Shown here piece after piece: positions 4,692 through 28,725 of a DNA stretch of 64,000 bases. The notes beneath the pieces are model-generated. The model ran no database searches. It was not told where the DNA came from and saw nothing but the letters and a program-made list of their open reading frames with translations. Positions within the stretch are counted from its first letter, which is position 1; every line of letters begins with the position of its first letter. This DNA is from Acidisarcina sp. (GTDB lineage Bacteria; Acidobacteriota; Terriglobia; Terriglobales; Acidobacteriaceae), in contig DATLIY010000008.1 of NCBI GenBank assembly GCA_035539175.1, positions 248,001 through 312,000 on the forward strand, read 5' to 3'. A program made the position numbers and the translations under genes.

Positions 4692-5105
4692 ATGGCTGAA
4701 AAGCAACCCCTGCTTACTCCTCGAGAAGCTGCTCGCATGCTGAGTGTGAGTTACCCAACCATCAAGCAATGGATTTTGACTGGAAAGCTTAAGACAACAA
4801 CAACCCCCGGAGGGCATCATCGCCTTTCCATGCGGTCGCTCAAGCCCTTTCTCAAGCATGAAAACGAAAAGCCCACAGCCAAGTCTAGAGACCGCTATCG
4901 CAAAGTGAGCGGTCGCAATCAGCTCTCTGGCAAGGTGCGGGACATAAAAGTGGATGGGCTGCTCGCGAAAGTCGTCCTTGATCTCGGAGAACATCAGATT
5001 ACCGCCATCATCACGTCGGACGCGGTCCGCGAGATGCAACTCAAAAAAGGCGACAATGCGGCTGCGTTGATCAAATCCACCGAGGTCATGATCGAGAGAG
5101 TCTAG
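4692..5105 (+). CDS. Excisionase/MerR-type HTH protein with C-terminal TOBE (Mop) domain
   Basis: A 137-residue cytoplasmic protein. Residues 7-52 (TPREAARMLSVSYPTIKQWI, then GGHHRLSMRSLKPFL) are a MerR/excisionase-type winged helix. Residues about 70-134 (LSGKVRDIKVDGLLAKVVLDL, then MQLKKGDNAAALIKSTEVMI) match a TOBE/Mop domain, the fold that binds molybdate or another small anion. This suggests a ligand-responsive DNA-binding protein, although no molybdate transport or cofactor genes are near. The ATG is chosen for GGAGGA 9 nt upstream; an upstream TTG at 4668 is less likely. It sits between the mannose genes and the TonB receptor, so control of this locus is plausible but unproven. Confidence 0.75.
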   Translation: MAEKQPLLTPREAARMLSVSYPTIKQWILTGKLKTTTTPGGHHRLSMRSLKPFLKHENEKPTAKSRDRYRKVSGRNQLSGKVRDIKVDGLLAKVVLDLGEHQITAIITSDAVREMQLKKGDNAAALIKSTEVMIERV

Positions 5106-5188
5106 CTGGGCCTGGGCCCTCTTCTCCCTTCATCACACTCCCGGCCCGTCCTTCGCGTCGACATCATGCCCCCTTTTCTGGCGCTTCG

Positions 5189-5217
5189 TTGACTATACGT
5201 TTTCAGTCGACTACATT
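5189..5217 (+). promoter_or_regulatory. Predicted sigma-70 promoter for the TonB receptor gene
   Basis: TTGACT (5189-5194), a 17-nt spacer, then TACATT (5212-5217) give a good -35/-10 pair about 100 nt before the GTG start. The -35 shares five of six bases with TTGACA and the -10 four of six with TATAAT. It is overlapped by symmetric repeats described separately. Confidence 0.5.
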
Positions 5218-5226
5218 CATATAGTC
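5191..5226. promoter_or_regulatory. Tandem pair of GACT-N10-AGTC elements (candidate operators)
   Basis: Two adjacent 18-bp elements, 5191-5208 and 5209-5226, each begin with GACT and end with AGTC. Together they make a symmetric array: GACTAT, 8 nt, AGTCGACT, 8 nt, ATAGTC, centred at 5208.5. The array covers almost the whole predicted promoter, so a bound protein would block polymerase. The binding protein is unknown; the neighbouring HTH-TOBE protein is one candidate. Confidence 0.5.
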
Positions 5227-5320
5227 TCAATTTGGGCCCCTCTTATTCGACAATAGATCTCTGTTGCTCGTGTGCAATCGAAGATCCGCCCCACTCCCCT
5301 TTCTTCCCCAAGGAGAGCCT

Positions 5321-8300
5321 GTGCAATCATCGTTGAAGACCGTCCTTCTACTCGTTGCAGCTTCCCTCTTCACCTCTGCGGCCGCGCACGGGCAAATCTC
5401 TGGCAGCCTCAAGGGCCGCATCACCGATAGCGCAAATGCGGTCATTGCAGGAGCACGCGTTACCGCCACGGAGGTAGACACGGGCCTATCGCGGACCGCT
5501 GTCAGTGCGCCCAATGGCGAGTATGTCTTTCCGCAACTGCACCCTGGCCTCTACCGCGTAACCGTGACGGCGAACAACTTCAGACAAATGATTCGCGAAG
5601 GCATCACGGTGCTGACCGGAGCTACGGATTCCGCAGATATGTCGCTTACTGTTGGATCGGCGCTCCAGAGCGTGACTGTGAGCTCAGATGTACCTCTCCT
5701 GCAATCTGAGACGAGCAACATTCAGACAACCATTCCCGGACACACGGTGACAGCGCTCCCGCTCAATGGACGCAACTTTGTGCAGCTTGCAACCCTGGCG
5801 CCCGGCGTCTCCCTGCCGCCAGGAACCGTCCTTCCACGCATCAACGGCGGCCGCCCGCGCACGAATGAATATCTCTTTGACGGGATATCCGCCTTACAGC
5901 CGGAACCAGGTCAGGTGGCATTCTTCCCTATCCTCGACGACATCCAGGAATTCACCGTGGAAGCCAACAACGTGCCCGCCGAGTTTGGCCGCTTTAACGG
6001 CGGAGTGGTCAACCTCTCCACCCGGTCTGGGTCGAACACGATCCACGCGAGCCTCTATGATTTCTTTCGCAACGAGGCTTTGAATGCGCGCAATTATTTT
6101 TCGCGCTACCCCGCGAGGAAACCGGAATACCGGCGCAACCAATATGGCGCCACTCTGGGAGCGCCAATACTGAGGAACCGGCTTTTCTTTTTCGGTGGCT
6201 ACGAGGGAGAGAAGTTTCTCGAAGGCGTCACTCGGCTATCCACTGTACCAACAATGGCTCAGCGTCAAGGGATCTTCACGGGAGCCCATATCTATGACCC
6301 GTCAACGACGTTCTTCAATGGCAGCAGATACGTGCGCAAGGAGTTCCCGAACGATGTCATTGATAAGCCGTTCGATCCCACAGCGGCGGCTTTGTTGCGC
6401 CGCTTCCCGCTGCCAACAAACCCAACCGCAACGGCGAATAACTACACCCGAACGGCAAACGATGCTGTACATCAGAATCAGCTGGACGCCAGGATAGATG
6501 GCGCGTTTCGTCAAAAGGATCGGGCCTTCCTTCGCTACTCCTATTTCCATGAGGTCGAGCAGCCAGTAACTCCTCTACCCGATGGCAGCGGCGCGATCGT
6601 GGGCACGCTGCTGGGCACTGGAAATGTAGCAGGGCTATCGAATGTGACTGGTCAGCAAGCAGTCTTTAATGAGACACACACAGTCGGCGATCGTATGCTC
6701 AATGACTTTCGATTCGGTTACACGCGTCGCGCGAACGCGATCCGCGGAACAATATTGGGTGGAAGCGCATCGCAGGTACTTAGCATTCCGGGAATTCCGG
6801 AGAACGCCGCCTTCAGCAATGCGCTTCCGTCGTTCTTGATCACCGGCATCCAGCAACTTGGGCCGTCTGCTGGAACCTTCTCGCAATACCAGACAGCGGT
6901 TACGCAACTGGTTGATACCTTCTCATTCAACCACAGCGCACACGCAGTAAAGTTTGGCGCAGACCTACGCTGGTACCAATTGAATGCGATTGCGCCGCCA
7001 AGCCCCAGTGGATCGTTTGCCTTTACGACTACGGGAACCAATCAGCAAGGGGTGAACGGAACCGGAAATGCAATCGCAAGTTTTCTTCTTGGCCAGGTTG
7101 ATAGTTTCCAGATCGATCTCCAGGGCAGCCGGATTCGCCCGCGTGACTTTATTGAAGAGTACTTTCTGCAGGATGACTGGAAGGCGCTCCCAAATCTCAC
7201 GGTAAACGTCGGTGCCAGGTGGACGCTGCACCACCCCTCCACCGAGCGGAACAATCAAGGTGCTGTATTCAATCTTGCGACACAGCAGTTGCAGTATCTC
7301 GGGCGCGACGGTGTGCCACGAAGCGCACGCGAACTGCATTGGAATAACGTGGCCCCACGCATCGGTCTCGCATATTTGCTCAATCCCAGAACGGTGATTC
7401 GCAGTGGCTACGGAATCGTCTTTATCGATCAATCCGGAATCACCACCCCATTCACCACGCCGCAATTTCCTTTTATTCAGAACGTGGCGCAAAAGACGCA
7501 AGACAGCGTCAACGCAGCCTTTGCACTCTCTGCTGGCCCTTCTGTAGCGCCGCTCGCATTGACGCCGGATGCGGGATTAGGACAGAGCGTCTACACGGTC
7601 AAGCAAAGCCAGGGCTCAGGGTATACGCAGCAATGGAACCTTGCCGTGCAGCGGGAGTTGACCTCTAACCTCAGCTTTGAGGTTGCTTACGTGGGATCGC
7701 ATATCATCCGGGTTGGAATTCCTGACAGCAACATCAACCAGCTCACGGCACAGCAGCTATCGCTCGGTGCCGCACTGCAGGCTCCGGTGGCGAATCCTTA
7801 CTACGGACAGATTCCAGCCTCCTCGTCGATCGGCGGAAAGACGATCTCCTATGCACAATCGATCAAGCCATATCCGCGATTCCTGAACGTCGCGTATTAC
7901 CGCAACAACACTGGGCAGACCAACTACAACGCCATCGAGGCGAAGGTAGAACAGAGGCTGTCTCAGGGACTCTCGATGCTCTTCAGCTATACCCATTCGA
8001 AGCTGATCGACGATGCGTCTGCCGTATTCTCATCGACCGTATTGTCTTCGCCGAATTCGAACAGCCTGGTTGCCGCCGATGCCTATCGGCCATACCTTGA
8101 GCGGGACTCCTCCACCGGAGACACGCCCAACGTCCTCGTTGCCAGCTCAACCTATCAACTGCCAACAGTTGCCACGCGCCATGCTGGCAGCTTTGGCCCT
8201 GGAAAAGCTCTGTTGCGAGGATGGGCCGTGAACGCAATTTTCACGATGCAGTCCGGCATGCCGGTGGCGATAACGCAAGCAACCAACACGCTCGCGTTCG

Positions 8301-8662
8301 CCGGTTTTGTGCTGCAAAGGCCCGACATCATCGGCAAGGTAAACCTGCCAGACGCGCGGCGAACTCCAGCCAGATTCTTTAACACCAGCGCATTTCAGGC
8401 GGCCAAGCCATTTGCGCTCGGAGATGCATCGCGCGATCCCGTAAGAGGGCCCGCATTTCGCGACCTTGACCTGGCGATGGTGAAGCACACCGCGCTCTCC
8501 GAAAAGACCGATCTCGAGTTTCGAGCTGAGGTATTTAACGTGACAAACACTCCAGCTTTCGGCCAGCCCAATGGCAGCTTTGGATCGCCTGCATTCGGAA
8601 GCATTGCAACGACAGTCTCCGATCCTCGCGTCGTGCAGTTTGCTATCCGGTGGAGCCGGTGA
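5321..8662 (+). CDS. Oar-like TonB-dependent outer-membrane receptor
   Basis: Predicted 1113 residues. The GTG start has AAGGAG 5 nt upstream and gives a clean signal peptide (hydrophobic run TVLLLVAASLFTSAAAHG). Residues about 27-110 are a CarboxypepD_reg-like beta-sandwich (GSLKGRITDSANAVIAGARV, ending PGLYRVTVTANNF). A plug-type domain follows (ALPLNGRNFVQLATLAPGV; EFTVEANNVPAEFGRFNGGV; NLSTRSGSN) and then a long beta-barrel ending in an aromatic-rich strand (VVQFAIRWSR). Such receptors are greatly expanded in Acidobacteriota and are thought to import plant polymer fragments. The position beside mannose genes suggests manno-oligosaccharide uptake, by inference only. A more upstream in-frame TTG at 5264 was rejected because it lacks a signal peptide at the N-terminus. 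Confidence 0.85.
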   Translation: MQSSLKTVLLLVAASLFTSAAAHGQISGSLKGRITDSANAVIAGARVTATEVDTGLSRTAVSAPNGEYVFPQLHPGLYRVTVTANNFRQMIREGITVLTGATDSADMSLTVGSALQSVTVSSDVPLLQSETSNIQTTIPGHTVTALPLNGRNFVQLATLAPGVSLPPGTVLPRINGGRPRTNEYLFDGISALQPEPGQVAFFPILDDIQEFTVEANNVPAEFGRFNGGVVNLSTRSGSNTIHASLYDFFRNEALNARNYFSRYPARKPEYRRNQYGATLGAPILRNRLFFFGGYEGEKFLEGVTRLSTVPTMAQRQGIFTGAHIYDPSTTFFNGSRYVRKEFPNDVIDKPFDPTAAALLRRFPLPTNPTATANNYTRTANDAVHQNQLDARIDGAFRQKDRAFLRYSYFHEVEQPVTPLPDGSGAIVGTLLGTGNVAGLSNVTGQQAVFNETHTVGDRMLNDFRFGYTRRANAIRGTILGGSASQVLSIPGIPENAAFSNALPSFLITGIQQLGPSAGTFSQYQTAVTQLVDTFSFNHSAHAVKFGADLRWYQLNAIAPPSPSGSFAFTTTGTNQQGVNGTGNAIASFLLGQVDSFQIDLQGSRIRPRDFIEEYFLQDDWKALPNLTVNVGARWTLHHPSTERNNQGAVFNLATQQLQYLGRDGVPRSARELHWNNVAPRIGLAYLLNPRTVIRSGYGIVFIDQSGITTPFTTPQFPFIQNVAQKTQDSVNAAFALSAGPSVAPLALTPDAGLGQSVYTVKQSQGSGYTQQWNLAVQRELTSNLSFEVAYVGSHIIRVGIPDSNINQLTAQQLSLGAALQAPVANPYYGQIPASSSIGGKTISYAQSIKPYPRFLNVAYYRNNTGQTNYNAIEAKVEQRLSQGLSMLFSYTHSKLIDDASAVFSSTVLSSPNSNSLVAADAYRPYLERDSSTGDTPNVLVASSTYQLPTVATRHAGSFGPGKALLRGWAVNAIFTMQSGMPVAITQATNTLAFAGFVLQRPDIIGKVNLPDARRTPARFFNTSAFQAAKPFALGDASRDPVRGPAFRDLDLAMVKHTALSEKTDLEFRAEVFNVTNTPAFGQPNGSFGSPAFGSIATTVSDPRVVQFAIRWSR

Positions 8663-8690: not shown

Positions 8691-9848
8691 TTATCGCTGC
8701 GGCTGATCCTCAACAGTGCGCAACAGCTCCACAATTTTCGGTGCGGCAATGTGCTGGTAGTCGGACGACAGCAGACCATATCCTTCTGCCGAATCATACT
8801 TGCGGCCTTCACCGCTCGATTGCGTCCCGTTCAGCGGCCAATAACTCCACGACAGGTTGTTCTCCTTGATGTAGCGGATATACAGACGGAACCAATCTGA
8901 GTTGGCGCCGCAATCGAGAGTTTGGCAGGTGCCAAACTCGCCTACCCATAGCGGCACGCCGGGCTCTGTATGCAAGAGAAATCCGGCGCGCGCATCGTAG
9001 AGTTGCTTGAGTTCTTCGTAACTGGCGAAGGGATGTTGCGCGATGTTATAGGCATGCGGAGAGTAGACGAGTCTATTGGCTACTTTGAGATGAACTGGAA
9101 GCTTGTCAAAACCGATGAAGTTGGTCGAGTACTCCGGGCCTTCCACCATAATCAGGAGCCGAGGATTGGCGGCCAGAACGGCGTTGCCTCCTCGCTCAGC
9201 TGCTGCGTGCCAATCCCGCGTGGGGTCCGTGCCTCCCCAGACCGCGCCGCTTCTGAGTTCATTGCGCAGATCCGCACCAATGACCCATGGCTCGTTCTTG
9301 TAGCGGCGCACGATGGTCTGCCAATCCGCCAGCCACTTCGTTTCGGGATATGCGCTGCTGTACCACAGGCCGTTTCCATCCTTCTCACTGCAGCACCAGT
9401 CGGCCCGGCTAACGTGATTGTCGAGAATCACCATAATGCGATCTTTGGCCAACGCGTGGATCACAGCATCCATAACATCCATTGCATGCTTGCCCTTGAG
9501 TTGCGGATTGGCCTGAACAGCATAGTCAGCCACCAATGGGTTCCGCTCCAACGTCTCATTCGCCCATGGCAGCCGTACAGAATTCACTCCGAGCGCATGA
9601 ATTTCTTTCACGATCGCAGCCAGCGGCGCATGATCGAGTCCACCGGCGACATACTCCTTTTCGTCGAATCCATACCAGTTCACCGAATTGAGACGCACCG
9701 GGTTTCCCTTTGCATCCAGAATCTGATGGCCGCTGGTATGCAGCGGAAGCGCAATCTGCGCGTGAGAAACAAGAGAGCCCAGGCTGACACAAACAATTGT
9801 CAGCAGAACGACGCGGAGGATCAAAGAACGGATCATGCAGGAAATCAT
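8691..9848 (-). CDS. Secreted GH5-family glycoside hydrolase
   Basis: 385 residues with an N-terminal signal peptide ending near SHAQ. The body is a GH5 (beta/alpha)8 barrel: GVNSVRLPW on beta-2, VILDNHVSRADWC, the acid/base Glu in DLRNEL, YSPHAYN, and the nucleophile Glu in VGEFGT. It cleaves beta-linked polysaccharide outside the cytoplasm. GH5 includes endoglucanases and endo-mannanases; the adjacent mannose locus makes a mannanase attractive, but the sequence alone does not settle it. It is convergent with the TonB receptor (28-nt gap) and downstream of the alpha/beta hydrolase gene. An ATG at 9836 is an alternative start, since the GAGGG is too close to the first ATG. Confidence 0.85.
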   Translation of the reverse strand: MISCMIRSLILRVVLLTIVCVSLGSLVSHAQIALPLHTSGHQILDAKGNPVRLNSVNWYGFDEKEYVAGGLDHAPLAAIVKEIHALGVNSVRLPWANETLERNPLVADYAVQANPQLKGKHAMDVMDAVIHALAKDRIMVILDNHVSRADWCCSEKDGNGLWYSSAYPETKWLADWQTIVRRYKNEPWVIGADLRNELRSGAVWGGTDPTRDWHAAAERGGNAVLAANPRLLIMVEGPEYSTNFIGFDKLPVHLKVANRLVYSPHAYNIAQHPFASYEELKQLYDARAGFLLHTEPGVPLWVGEFGTCQTLDCGANSDWFRLYIRYIKENNLSWSYWPLNGTQSSGEGRKYDSAEGYGLLSSDYQHIAAPKIVELLRTVEDQPQR

Positions 9849-27792: not shown

Positions 27793-28587
27793 CTAGGGCT
27801 TGCCGTTGTCCTGTTCCAATCCAACCGGCCGGACGGGCGGCATCGAGCCGCGCATCATGGCTGGCGATTTCGAAGACAGCACAGCAGCCAATGGTTTGGC
27901 GCCCAGCGCTGTTCCCATGGGTCGCAGATTCATCGCCGGCTGCGTAGTGGCCTGCTGGTGCATGGTCACAATAATCGCAGTAGCCGGAGTTTTGCCAAGG
28001 CAGCGGTACGCATGCGGCGTGCTGGCATCAAAATAGACCCCATCTCCTGGTTCGAGAACATGAACCTTGTCGGAGTGGCGGATCTCAAGTTCGCCTTCGA
28101 GCAAGTACAGGAACTCGTAGCCCGGATGCACGTGCGGGCGCACTTCCGCCATCTTCTTCAGCGGAATGAACTCCGCATAGTAGGGATCGAGCTGGCGGTC
28201 GGGAACCATGTAGCCGAGGCTCTCAAAGTAGTAGGTGGGGTCGTCCACCCCGGTCTGTGGCAGGCGAACACGCTCCTTCTTCTTATGGACCCGAAAAAGG
28301 GTATGCGGCTCCGTCTCGAAAAAGTAGGAAAGATCCTTGCTGAAGACCATGGCGATGCGCGCCAGGTTCCTGAGGGTAGGGACCACACGGCCGGTCTCAA
28401 GCTGCGACAGGAAACTGGCCGAAAGGCCGGTGTGCTTCCCCAACTCCACAAGCCCCATGGATTTCTTCAATCGAAGACGCTTAATTCGCTCCCCGATATG
28501 TTTTTCCGCGATAAAATTCTCGGCGCTGCTAGGATCGATCGCCGCAGGAGTGGTCCCTTCGTCTTTCATCTCGGGCTTGGTGTTCAT
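27793..28587 (-). CDS. XRE-family transcriptional regulator with C-terminal cupin domain
   Basis: 264 residues. Residues about 30-90 are an XRE helix-turn-helix (GERIKRLRLKKSMGLVELGK; GLSASFLSQLETGRVVPTLR). Residues about 135-205 are a cupin (PHVHPGYEFLYLLEGELEIR; VLEPGDGVYFDASTPHAYRC) likely to bind a small effector. The Ala/Pro-rich tail is non-conserved. The combination is typical of regulators such as PuuR-like proteins. The ATG at 28587 has AAAGGA 6 nt upstream; an earlier in-frame start at 28608 is less likely. It is divergent from the epimerase gene, with which it shares a 138-nt upstream region. Confidence 0.85.
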   Translation of the reverse strand: MNTKPEMKDEGTTPAAIDPSSAENFIAEKHIGERIKRLRLKKSMGLVELGKHTGLSASFLSQLETGRVVPTLRNLARIAMVFSKDLSYFFETEPHTLFRVHKKKERVRLPQTGVDDPTYYFESLGYMVPDRQLDPYYAEFIPLKKMAEVRPHVHPGYEFLYLLEGELEIRHSDKVHVLEPGDGVYFDASTPHAYRCLGKTPATAIIVTMHQQATTQPAMNLRPMGTALGAKPLAAVLSSKSPAMMRGSMPPVRPVGLEQDNGKP

Positions 28588-28725
28588 AGCAGATCCTTTT
28601 GACCACACTTAATAGATGCGTCAGCGGAGCAAAATGTTACCAGTACTGCAATACCTTCCATTATGGTGAAACCAGCTCCCGCGGCAATCGCATCGGAACC
28701 AGACCGCGAGGAAAGGAGCATCAAG

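Follow-up and report, generated by a model that had tools for sequence, protein, structure and literature searches.

A promoter/operator element of an Oar-type outer-membrane receptor gene in Acidobacteriota, probably bound by a molybdenum-sensing HTH-TOBE repressor

The symmetric 36-bp GACT array that a first-pass annotation had singled out in front of a TonB receptor gene, in a 64,000-nucleotide stretch of an Acidisarcina sp. genome (hereafter, the window), is a peculiarity of one genome that sits atop a control site common to many soil Acidobacteria. Its most likely role is to allow a repressor that senses molybdenum to turn the receptor on when the metal is short. We consider it probable that the element comprises the promoter and operator of an Oar-type receptor gene, that it is bound by the product of the adjacent HTH-TOBE gene, and that it mediates molybdenum/tungsten (Mo/W)-responsive repression of a receptor that imports Mo/W.

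In the window, the HTH-TOBE gene (positions 4692-5105, forward strand, 137 aa) is separated by a 215-bp intergenic region from the gene of the Oar-type outer-membrane receptor (5321-8662, forward strand, 1113 aa), whose GTG start codon at 5321 is preceded by AAGGAG at 5310-5315. Pfam, NCBIfam and PDB matches led us to propose that the former encodes a molybdate/tungstate-responsive repressor, while Pfam matches, orthologs and gene neighbors suggest that the latter encodes a TonB-dependent transporter of molybdate, tungstate or a chelate. A scan of positions 4800-5600 recovered the promoter that the array had been said to overlap, TTGACT-N17-TACATT, with 9 of 12 matches and as the sole match on both strands (shuffle mean, 0.2). 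Its -35 hexamer TTGACT occupies 5189-5194 (forward strand; TTGAC is exact in 17 of 26 aligned ortholog promoters) and its -10 hexamer TACATT occupies 5212-5217 (forward strand), overlapping the right arm of the operator. The window version of the operator core, TATACGTTTTCAGTCGACTA (5194-5213, forward strand), corresponds to the family consensus TATACGATT-YR-AATCGTATA and includes, at 5198-5199, a CG that is present in 26 of 26 promoters. A third half-site position (5215-5220, forward strand) keeps the register at a distance of 10 bp from the operator's right arm and reads ATTCAT in the window where ATTCGT is typical of relatives. With 5 of 10 pairs complementary and the third CG lost, the window copy is thus among the more degenerate operators. 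A ROK-family gene upstream of HTH-TOBE (PF00480, 1934-2881) is not a conserved neighbor of the HTH-TOBE/receptor pair.

The array itself is exactly as it had been described: two back-to-back GACT-N10-AGTC elements at 5191-5226 (forward strand), made up of GACTATACGTTTTCAGTC at 5191-5208 and GACTACATTCATATAGTC at 5209-5226, with 13 of 18 pairs complementary over the whole 36-mer. The accompanying claim that such phasing is unlikely by chance holds for the tandem symmetry, which is unusual within a single sequence: the window contains one case of two inverted repeats in tandem that have identical 4-bp arms and a 10-bp gap, 60 shuffles contain none, and the same class with any gap of 4-14 bp has a shuffle mean of 0.07. 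It does not extend to the single motif, for which the two matches in the window (0.63 expected from shuffles) were equaled or exceeded in 14 of 100 shuffles, so that its chance level within one window alone is not decisive. The genome-wide search that had been suggested returned 24 GACT-N10-AGTC matches in the 3.9-Mb genome vs 67 for a control pattern, that is, no enrichment, and on this count the pattern was rejected as a genome-wide motif; the best-looking other match (contig C9, position 274654) apparently lies, by reading, within coding sequence. Among the 26 aligned ortholog promoters, GACT at offset 0 is found in 9, AGTC at offset 14 in 3, GACT at offset 18 in 6 and AGTC at offset 32 in 1, and the only promoter with all four arms is that of the window. 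Absence from close relatives that keep the gene had been named in the first-pass annotation as evidence against the array, and its absence from 25 of the 26 promoters means that it fails this test. The GACT arms are instead pieces of other elements, namely the -35 box (TTGACT) and the operator's right arm (TCGACTA). The changes that complete them are rare in, or absent from, the remaining promoters of the set, and the symmetry over the conserved promoter/operator is coincidental. A repressor that binds as two dimers with GACT-N10-AGTC as its operator is hardly credible in view of the restriction of the full array and the fourth arm to one promoter each and the lack of genome-wide enrichment, in spite of the exact tandem symmetry in the window; nor is the pair-of-dimers geometry supported. 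The conserved half-site is ACGATT/AATCGT, not GACT/AGTC.

What is conserved at this place became apparent from the promoters of receptor orthologs, which were drawn from 17 genome-contig loci, 61 relatives, 200 family genomes (22 with a receptor match at E<=1e-150) and 396 phylum genomes (31 receptor matches; G291, with 36% identity and no locus, was excluded). The 37 promoter rows were reduced to 26 by removal of 4 duplicates and of 7 rows without a confident site (L005, L006, L007, L008, L045, L118, in which the gene start falls outside the contig, and L119); L009, L042 and L044 were left out of promoter scoring. The 26 distinct promoters, which span genera of the family, align without gaps and share the block TTGAC-n-ATACGAtT-YR-AaTCGtaTA-aATTCGT, in which the promoter spacer holds a palindrome; the best copy of this palindrome (TATACGATT-CA-AATCGTATA, 9 of 10 pairs) is found in L113. 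Mean conservation is 1.17 bits per column in the block vs 0.23 in the flanks, with 27 of 32 block columns at 0.68 bits or more and the 20 flanking columns at 0.04-0.51 bits. Because each site was chosen as the best match to a consensus, 200 letter-shuffled consensus strings were run as a control, and these yielded a mean of 0.32 and a maximum of 0.59 bits, with a mean match to consensus of 16.6/32 vs 25.9/32 for the real one. Columns 9-10 read CG in 26 of 26 promoters, and CG recurs 10 bp farther on in 16 and 20 bp farther on in 19, all three being present in 13.

The conserved -35 and -10 boxes and their 17-bp spacing might by themselves reflect a strong sigma-70 promoter without any specific operator. 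Yet ATACGATT-YR-AATCG in the spacer, although dispensable to a promoter, is conserved to the same degree as the hexamers, the palindrome is kept in L113, L114 and L115 although the -35 match is lost, and the half-sites are found again at HTH-TOBE promoters of other genomes, so a promoter-only explanation seems to us improbable. With half-sites placed both in the spacer between the hexamers and over the hexamers themselves, a bound protein should repress transcription; the earlier idea of a repressor operator over the receptor promoter thus stands insofar as a conserved regulatory element is found there, in a position from which its binder would obstruct RNA polymerase, but not with GACT-N10-AGTC as its motif. 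The element is also present at receptors that are remote from the regulator gene (L004, L105 and L108, and in weaker form L116). Some promoters depart from the common pattern: by eye, those of L005, L006 and L008 carry divergent CG-containing repeats, and among distant orthologs, L214 is rich in CGATAT/ATATCG and L008 has the exact palindrome AATCGTATATATACGATT, suggesting that half-site order and spacing can shuffle.

The protein encoded next door, HTH-TOBE, is the likely binder of this putative operator. It combines a BldC/HTH_17-type DNA-binding domain (residues ~3-54) with a Mop/TOBE oxyanion-binding domain (71-134). Pfam reported TOBE (3.6e-14), HTH_17 (2.1e-8) and also MerR, with no match to the N-terminal HTH of ModE at E<=0.001 and no PBP_like domain (PF12727) in the 137 residues. 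The NCBIfam model Mop (TIGR00638) matched at 66.7 bits (cut-off 55), HTH_BldC at 35 bits, below its curated cut-off of 77, and PDB sequence matches included ModG/MopII and BldC (6ama, 4.8e-6). A nine-sequence AlphaFold model (mean pLDDT 75.6, pTM 0.42) gave tungbindin, MopII and ModG as the best Foldseek matches (E from 4e-5; 1fr3 matched), followed by whole E. coli ModE chains (E 1.5e-3, rmsd ~15 Å), which came ahead of BldC, and by BldC-DNA complexes (6ama/6amk; E 3.5e-3 and weaker, rmsd ~2 Å over ~50 residues; for 6amk, TMt 0.73-0.76 and E 5e-3). Thirteen aligned sequences, that of the window among them, all have S73, R75, N76 and K128; in Mop proteins, the oxyanion is contacted by the SxRN stretch.

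The HTH-TOBE gene is present in 136 of 200 family genomes and in all 22 of the 200 that bear the receptor (P ~1e-4, both draws taken as the same 200). Where the receptor ortholog is missing, the half-site recurs at the regulator gene itself: in 16 loci from such genomes, the 350 bp upstream of HTH-TOBE contain 15 copies of WACGAWT (shuffle mean 2.5, maximum 8 in 500 shuffles), spread over 11 loci, at a density of 2.68/kb vs 0.20/kb elsewhere in these loci. WACGAWT ranks first of 1260 letter permutations for the upstream count; it was taken from the receptor promoters, and the HTH-TOBE upstream sequences were already known when it was counted. Of the two candidate binders named in the first-pass annotation, HTH-TOBE is strongly indicated. 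The second, an XRE-cupin protein (27793-28608), or a regulator encoded outside the window might bind the element instead, a very improbable alternative given the clustering of half-sites at HTH-TOBE promoters and the fact that four non-training operator matches, described next, adjoin HTH-TOBE genes.

These matches came from R1, a model built from the sequences of 23 of the 26 promoter rows (L040, L043 and L117 were omitted). In the 3.9-Mb genome of the window R1 has one match at E<=1, and on this ground the idea that all Oar-type receptors share one operator was rejected. In the 200 family genomes, scanned with stricter filters and 29 candidates scored per genome, R1 has 15 matches at E<=1e-3, of which 13 are receptor-ortholog promoters from the training set; the other two lie between divergent HTH-TOBE and CarboxypepD_reg-Plug receptor genes in G192 (L145) and between HTH-TOBE and an Oar-type receptor gene in G079. 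Five of 20 weaker matches (E 1e-3 to 0.05) fall within the system: one between divergent HTH-TOBE and another CarboxypepD_reg-Plug receptor gene (G175), one in front of HTH-TOBE-modA-modB (G029), one at the G222 receptor and two opposite-strand readings (G162 and G228). Nine of the remainder belong to genus g63 and six lie away from the system (G022, G015, G027, G230 and two in G029). With an operator located between HTH-TOBE and a CarboxypepD_reg-Plug receptor gene, control by the regulator may extend beyond a single type of receptor.

The window receptor matches OMP_b-brl_4 (PF25183, 2.1e-217) and CarboxypepD_reg (PF13620, 7.3e-19) but not Plug at E<=0.001 in Pfam, whereas the alternative receptors beside HTH-TOBE in L145, L222 and L172 possess a Plug domain. 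At L145 (1693-3038) and L222 (1677-3028), the CarboxypepD_reg-Plug receptor gene diverges from HTH-TOBE with the operator between the two. Identity to the window receptor is ~48-71% for its orthologs and mostly <=36% for the rest of the Oar-type receptors. An AlphaFold model of the window receptor was poor (mean pLDDT 43).

From gene context, we infer that the cargo of the receptor is molybdate, tungstate or a chelate of either. HTH-TOBE, modA/modB or MoaE/XdhC genes are located within 1.5 kb of the receptor gene at 41 of 56 distinct ortholog loci (HTH-TOBE at 36, modA/modB at 3 and MoaE/XdhC at 2) vs 0 of 23 loci whose Oar-type receptors are not orthologs (Fisher 3e-10), although, because the genomes are related, such counts overstate independence and the P values given here are optimistic. 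The other 15 ortholog loci, some of them cut by contig ends, have no tested neighbor within this distance. Over longer stretches, the arrangements include receptor-modA-modB-modC (L211), HTH-TOBE divergent from modA-modB-modC-receptor (L209 and L203, the latter being the L045 locus), receptor genes adjoining that of an Oxidored_molyb protein (L208 and L216) and, elsewhere, HTH-TOBE at the head of modA-modB (L092 and L093).

A receptor controlled by HTH-TOBE through this operator could nevertheless carry something other than Mo/W, for example a molybdoenzyme substrate such as purines for xanthine dehydrogenase, with Mo status serving as the signal. Oar-type receptors form a large family with presumably many cargoes (67 first-look candidates, of which 12 were scored, in the genome of the window alone), and XdhC is encoded next to the receptor in L206 (receptor-XdhC) and, together with a MoCo-binding oxidoreductase, ahead of MoaA-TauE-MoaE-receptor in L044. 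However, the neighbors common across lineages are genes of Mo uptake and sensing, including modABC in L209, L203 and L211, rather than one particular enzyme, and one protein family, encoded next to HTH-TOBE in relatives that lack the receptor, is found at the head of modABC in two genomes. We therefore regard a cargo other than Mo/W as unlikely and Mo/W import as the preferred reading.

This family, here called P300, consists of ~300-aa proteins with the motif ..ARYQARVTATQxEQPHWITPLVTVTPRLEQExRTDF.. that are exported, judging by eye from the N-terminus. In 11 of the 16 loci from genomes without the receptor ortholog (L161-L163, L165, L167, L168, L170, L171, L173, L175 and L176), it is encoded divergently beside HTH-TOBE, and the two genomes in which it heads modABC, with HTH-TOBE divergent from P300-modABC, are those of L229 (P300 at 8817-9737) and L235 (1135-2001). 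P300 lies beside HTH-TOBE in 26 genomes but in 0 of the 22 receptor genomes, where 4.2 were expected (P 0.006, coordinates compared by eye), and 7 of these 22 have homologs elsewhere in the genome. Three of the proteins were compared with Pfam up to E 0.1 and two with NCBIfam up to 0.01, in each case with no match; P300 is a candidate for an outer-membrane Mo/W channel or helper. Taken to its full extent, the proposal would be that Acidobacteriota import Mo/W actively through the outer membrane by a dedicated TonB-dependent Oar-type receptor under an undescribed BldC-HTH-Mop sensor-repressor acting on phased ACGATT half-sites, and that in relatives its regulatory slot is taken by Plug-bearing receptors or by a ~300-aa exported protein able to head modABC; we give this broader statement an even chance of being correct.

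According to our model, molybdate (or tungstate) would bind to the Mop/TOBE domain of HTH-TOBE, and the oxyanion-loaded protein would oligomerize on the phased half-sites via its BldC-like HTH, cover the spacer and the -10 box and thereby block transcription. When Mo/W is scarce, the repressor would leave and the receptor would be made, and would then supply ModABC by moving molybdate, tungstate or a chelate through the outer membrane. The analogy with ModE points to the oxyanion-loaded form as the likely repressor, and the precedent of BldC (PMC5859096) suggests cooperative binding on the phased half-sites.

HTH-TOBE would share with ModE a Mop/TOBE domain and molybdate as the expected co-repressor, as well as inverted half-sites containing CG and TAT, and E. 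coli ModE was among the fold-search matches of the HTH-TOBE model. The two differ in that the DNA-binding domain of HTH-TOBE is by sequence of the BldC/HTH_17 type and accompanied by one TOBE domain, whereas the N-terminal HTH of ModE is HTH_9 (PMC11980592). They differ also in the operator, which is TATACGATT-N2-AATCGTATA and, compared by eye, not the ATCGNTATATA-N6-TATATANCGAT consensus given for the E. coli type of ModE regulon (PMC545781), and in the main target, here an outer-membrane receptor. In the genome of the window, modB is on a different contig from the receptor, and no half-site was found in the 3.6 kb around it (L058); this genome gives no support for a plain Mo regulon that takes in modABC. 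Since, moreover, only one of 18 modB loci (L052) has a close half-site pair, this is not a simple ModE-like regulon.

BldC-family proteins are MerR-like single-domain regulators that bind direct repeats as head-to-tail cooperative multimers (PMC5859096). The HTH of HTH-TOBE matches BldC in sequence and fold, and its several half-sites lie about one helical turn apart, the 10-bp steps being compatible with head-to-tail oligomers; in contrast, HTH-TOBE has an additional Mop/TOBE domain, its two best half-sites are inverted while the second and third are direct, and the half-site is ACGATT rather than the AATTXXXXC of BldC. TaoR and TaoR-like regulators, which join HTH_17 to a PBP-like domain with or without TOBE (PMC11980592), likewise combine HTH_17 with a Mo/W-sensing module and regulate in response to W/Mo, but HTH-TOBE has no PBP-like domain. 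Separate genes for PBP_like (PF12727), which serves as sensor domain in TaoR-type regulators, lie near the receptor in two distant relatives (L206, 4228-4662; L208, 5529-6524).

The Fur-controlled siderophore receptors are metal-regulated TonB-dependent receptors, and the present system would resemble them in placing a metal-responsive repressor over an outer-membrane receptor promoter, although here the predicted metal is Mo/W, the receptor is Oar-type and the regulator is not of the Fur/DtxR/NikR kind. Molybdate is thought to pass the outer membrane by passive diffusion. Among the literature matches listed, titles and abstract openings mention no TonB-dependent molybdate receptor. The nearest case in this literature is that of Pseudomonas, in which ModA is reported to be secreted and to pass molybdate on by way of IcmP, a protein of the outer membrane (PMC11734730). 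Oar of Myxococcus xanthus, also an Oar-type TonB-dependent protein, is reported to be needed for secretion of the protease PopC (PMC6434023), whereas the receptor here is tied by context to Mo uptake. ModE, BldC, TaoR-type regulators and metal-regulated TonB receptors are known kinds, and their combination was not found among the literature matches listed, which were the top part of all matches and came from a search outside which most subscription papers lie. If correct, a dedicated receptor governed by a Mo sensor would suggest that Mo in soil can be limiting enough to justify energized uptake, and would provide a substrate for one of the many uncharacterized Oar-type receptors of Acidobacteriota; both ideas can be tested directly in the Edaphobacter or Granulicella strains that have the regulator-receptor pair (L037-L040).

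The nine R1 matches of genus g63 (G138 and G167; E<=0.05) fall at seven places, none of them on an HTH-TOBE-bearing contig, and no Mo link of these repeats was visible. In the five places that were read (L219, L220, L226, L227 and L228), they belong to a dispersed, non-coding repeat of >100 bp that has the same palindrome (ATACGATTNNAATCGTAT) and a conserved tail, TGATCCAAA, with HTH-TOBE not nearby. This repeat may possibly be mobile, either titrating the regulator or having borrowed its operator.
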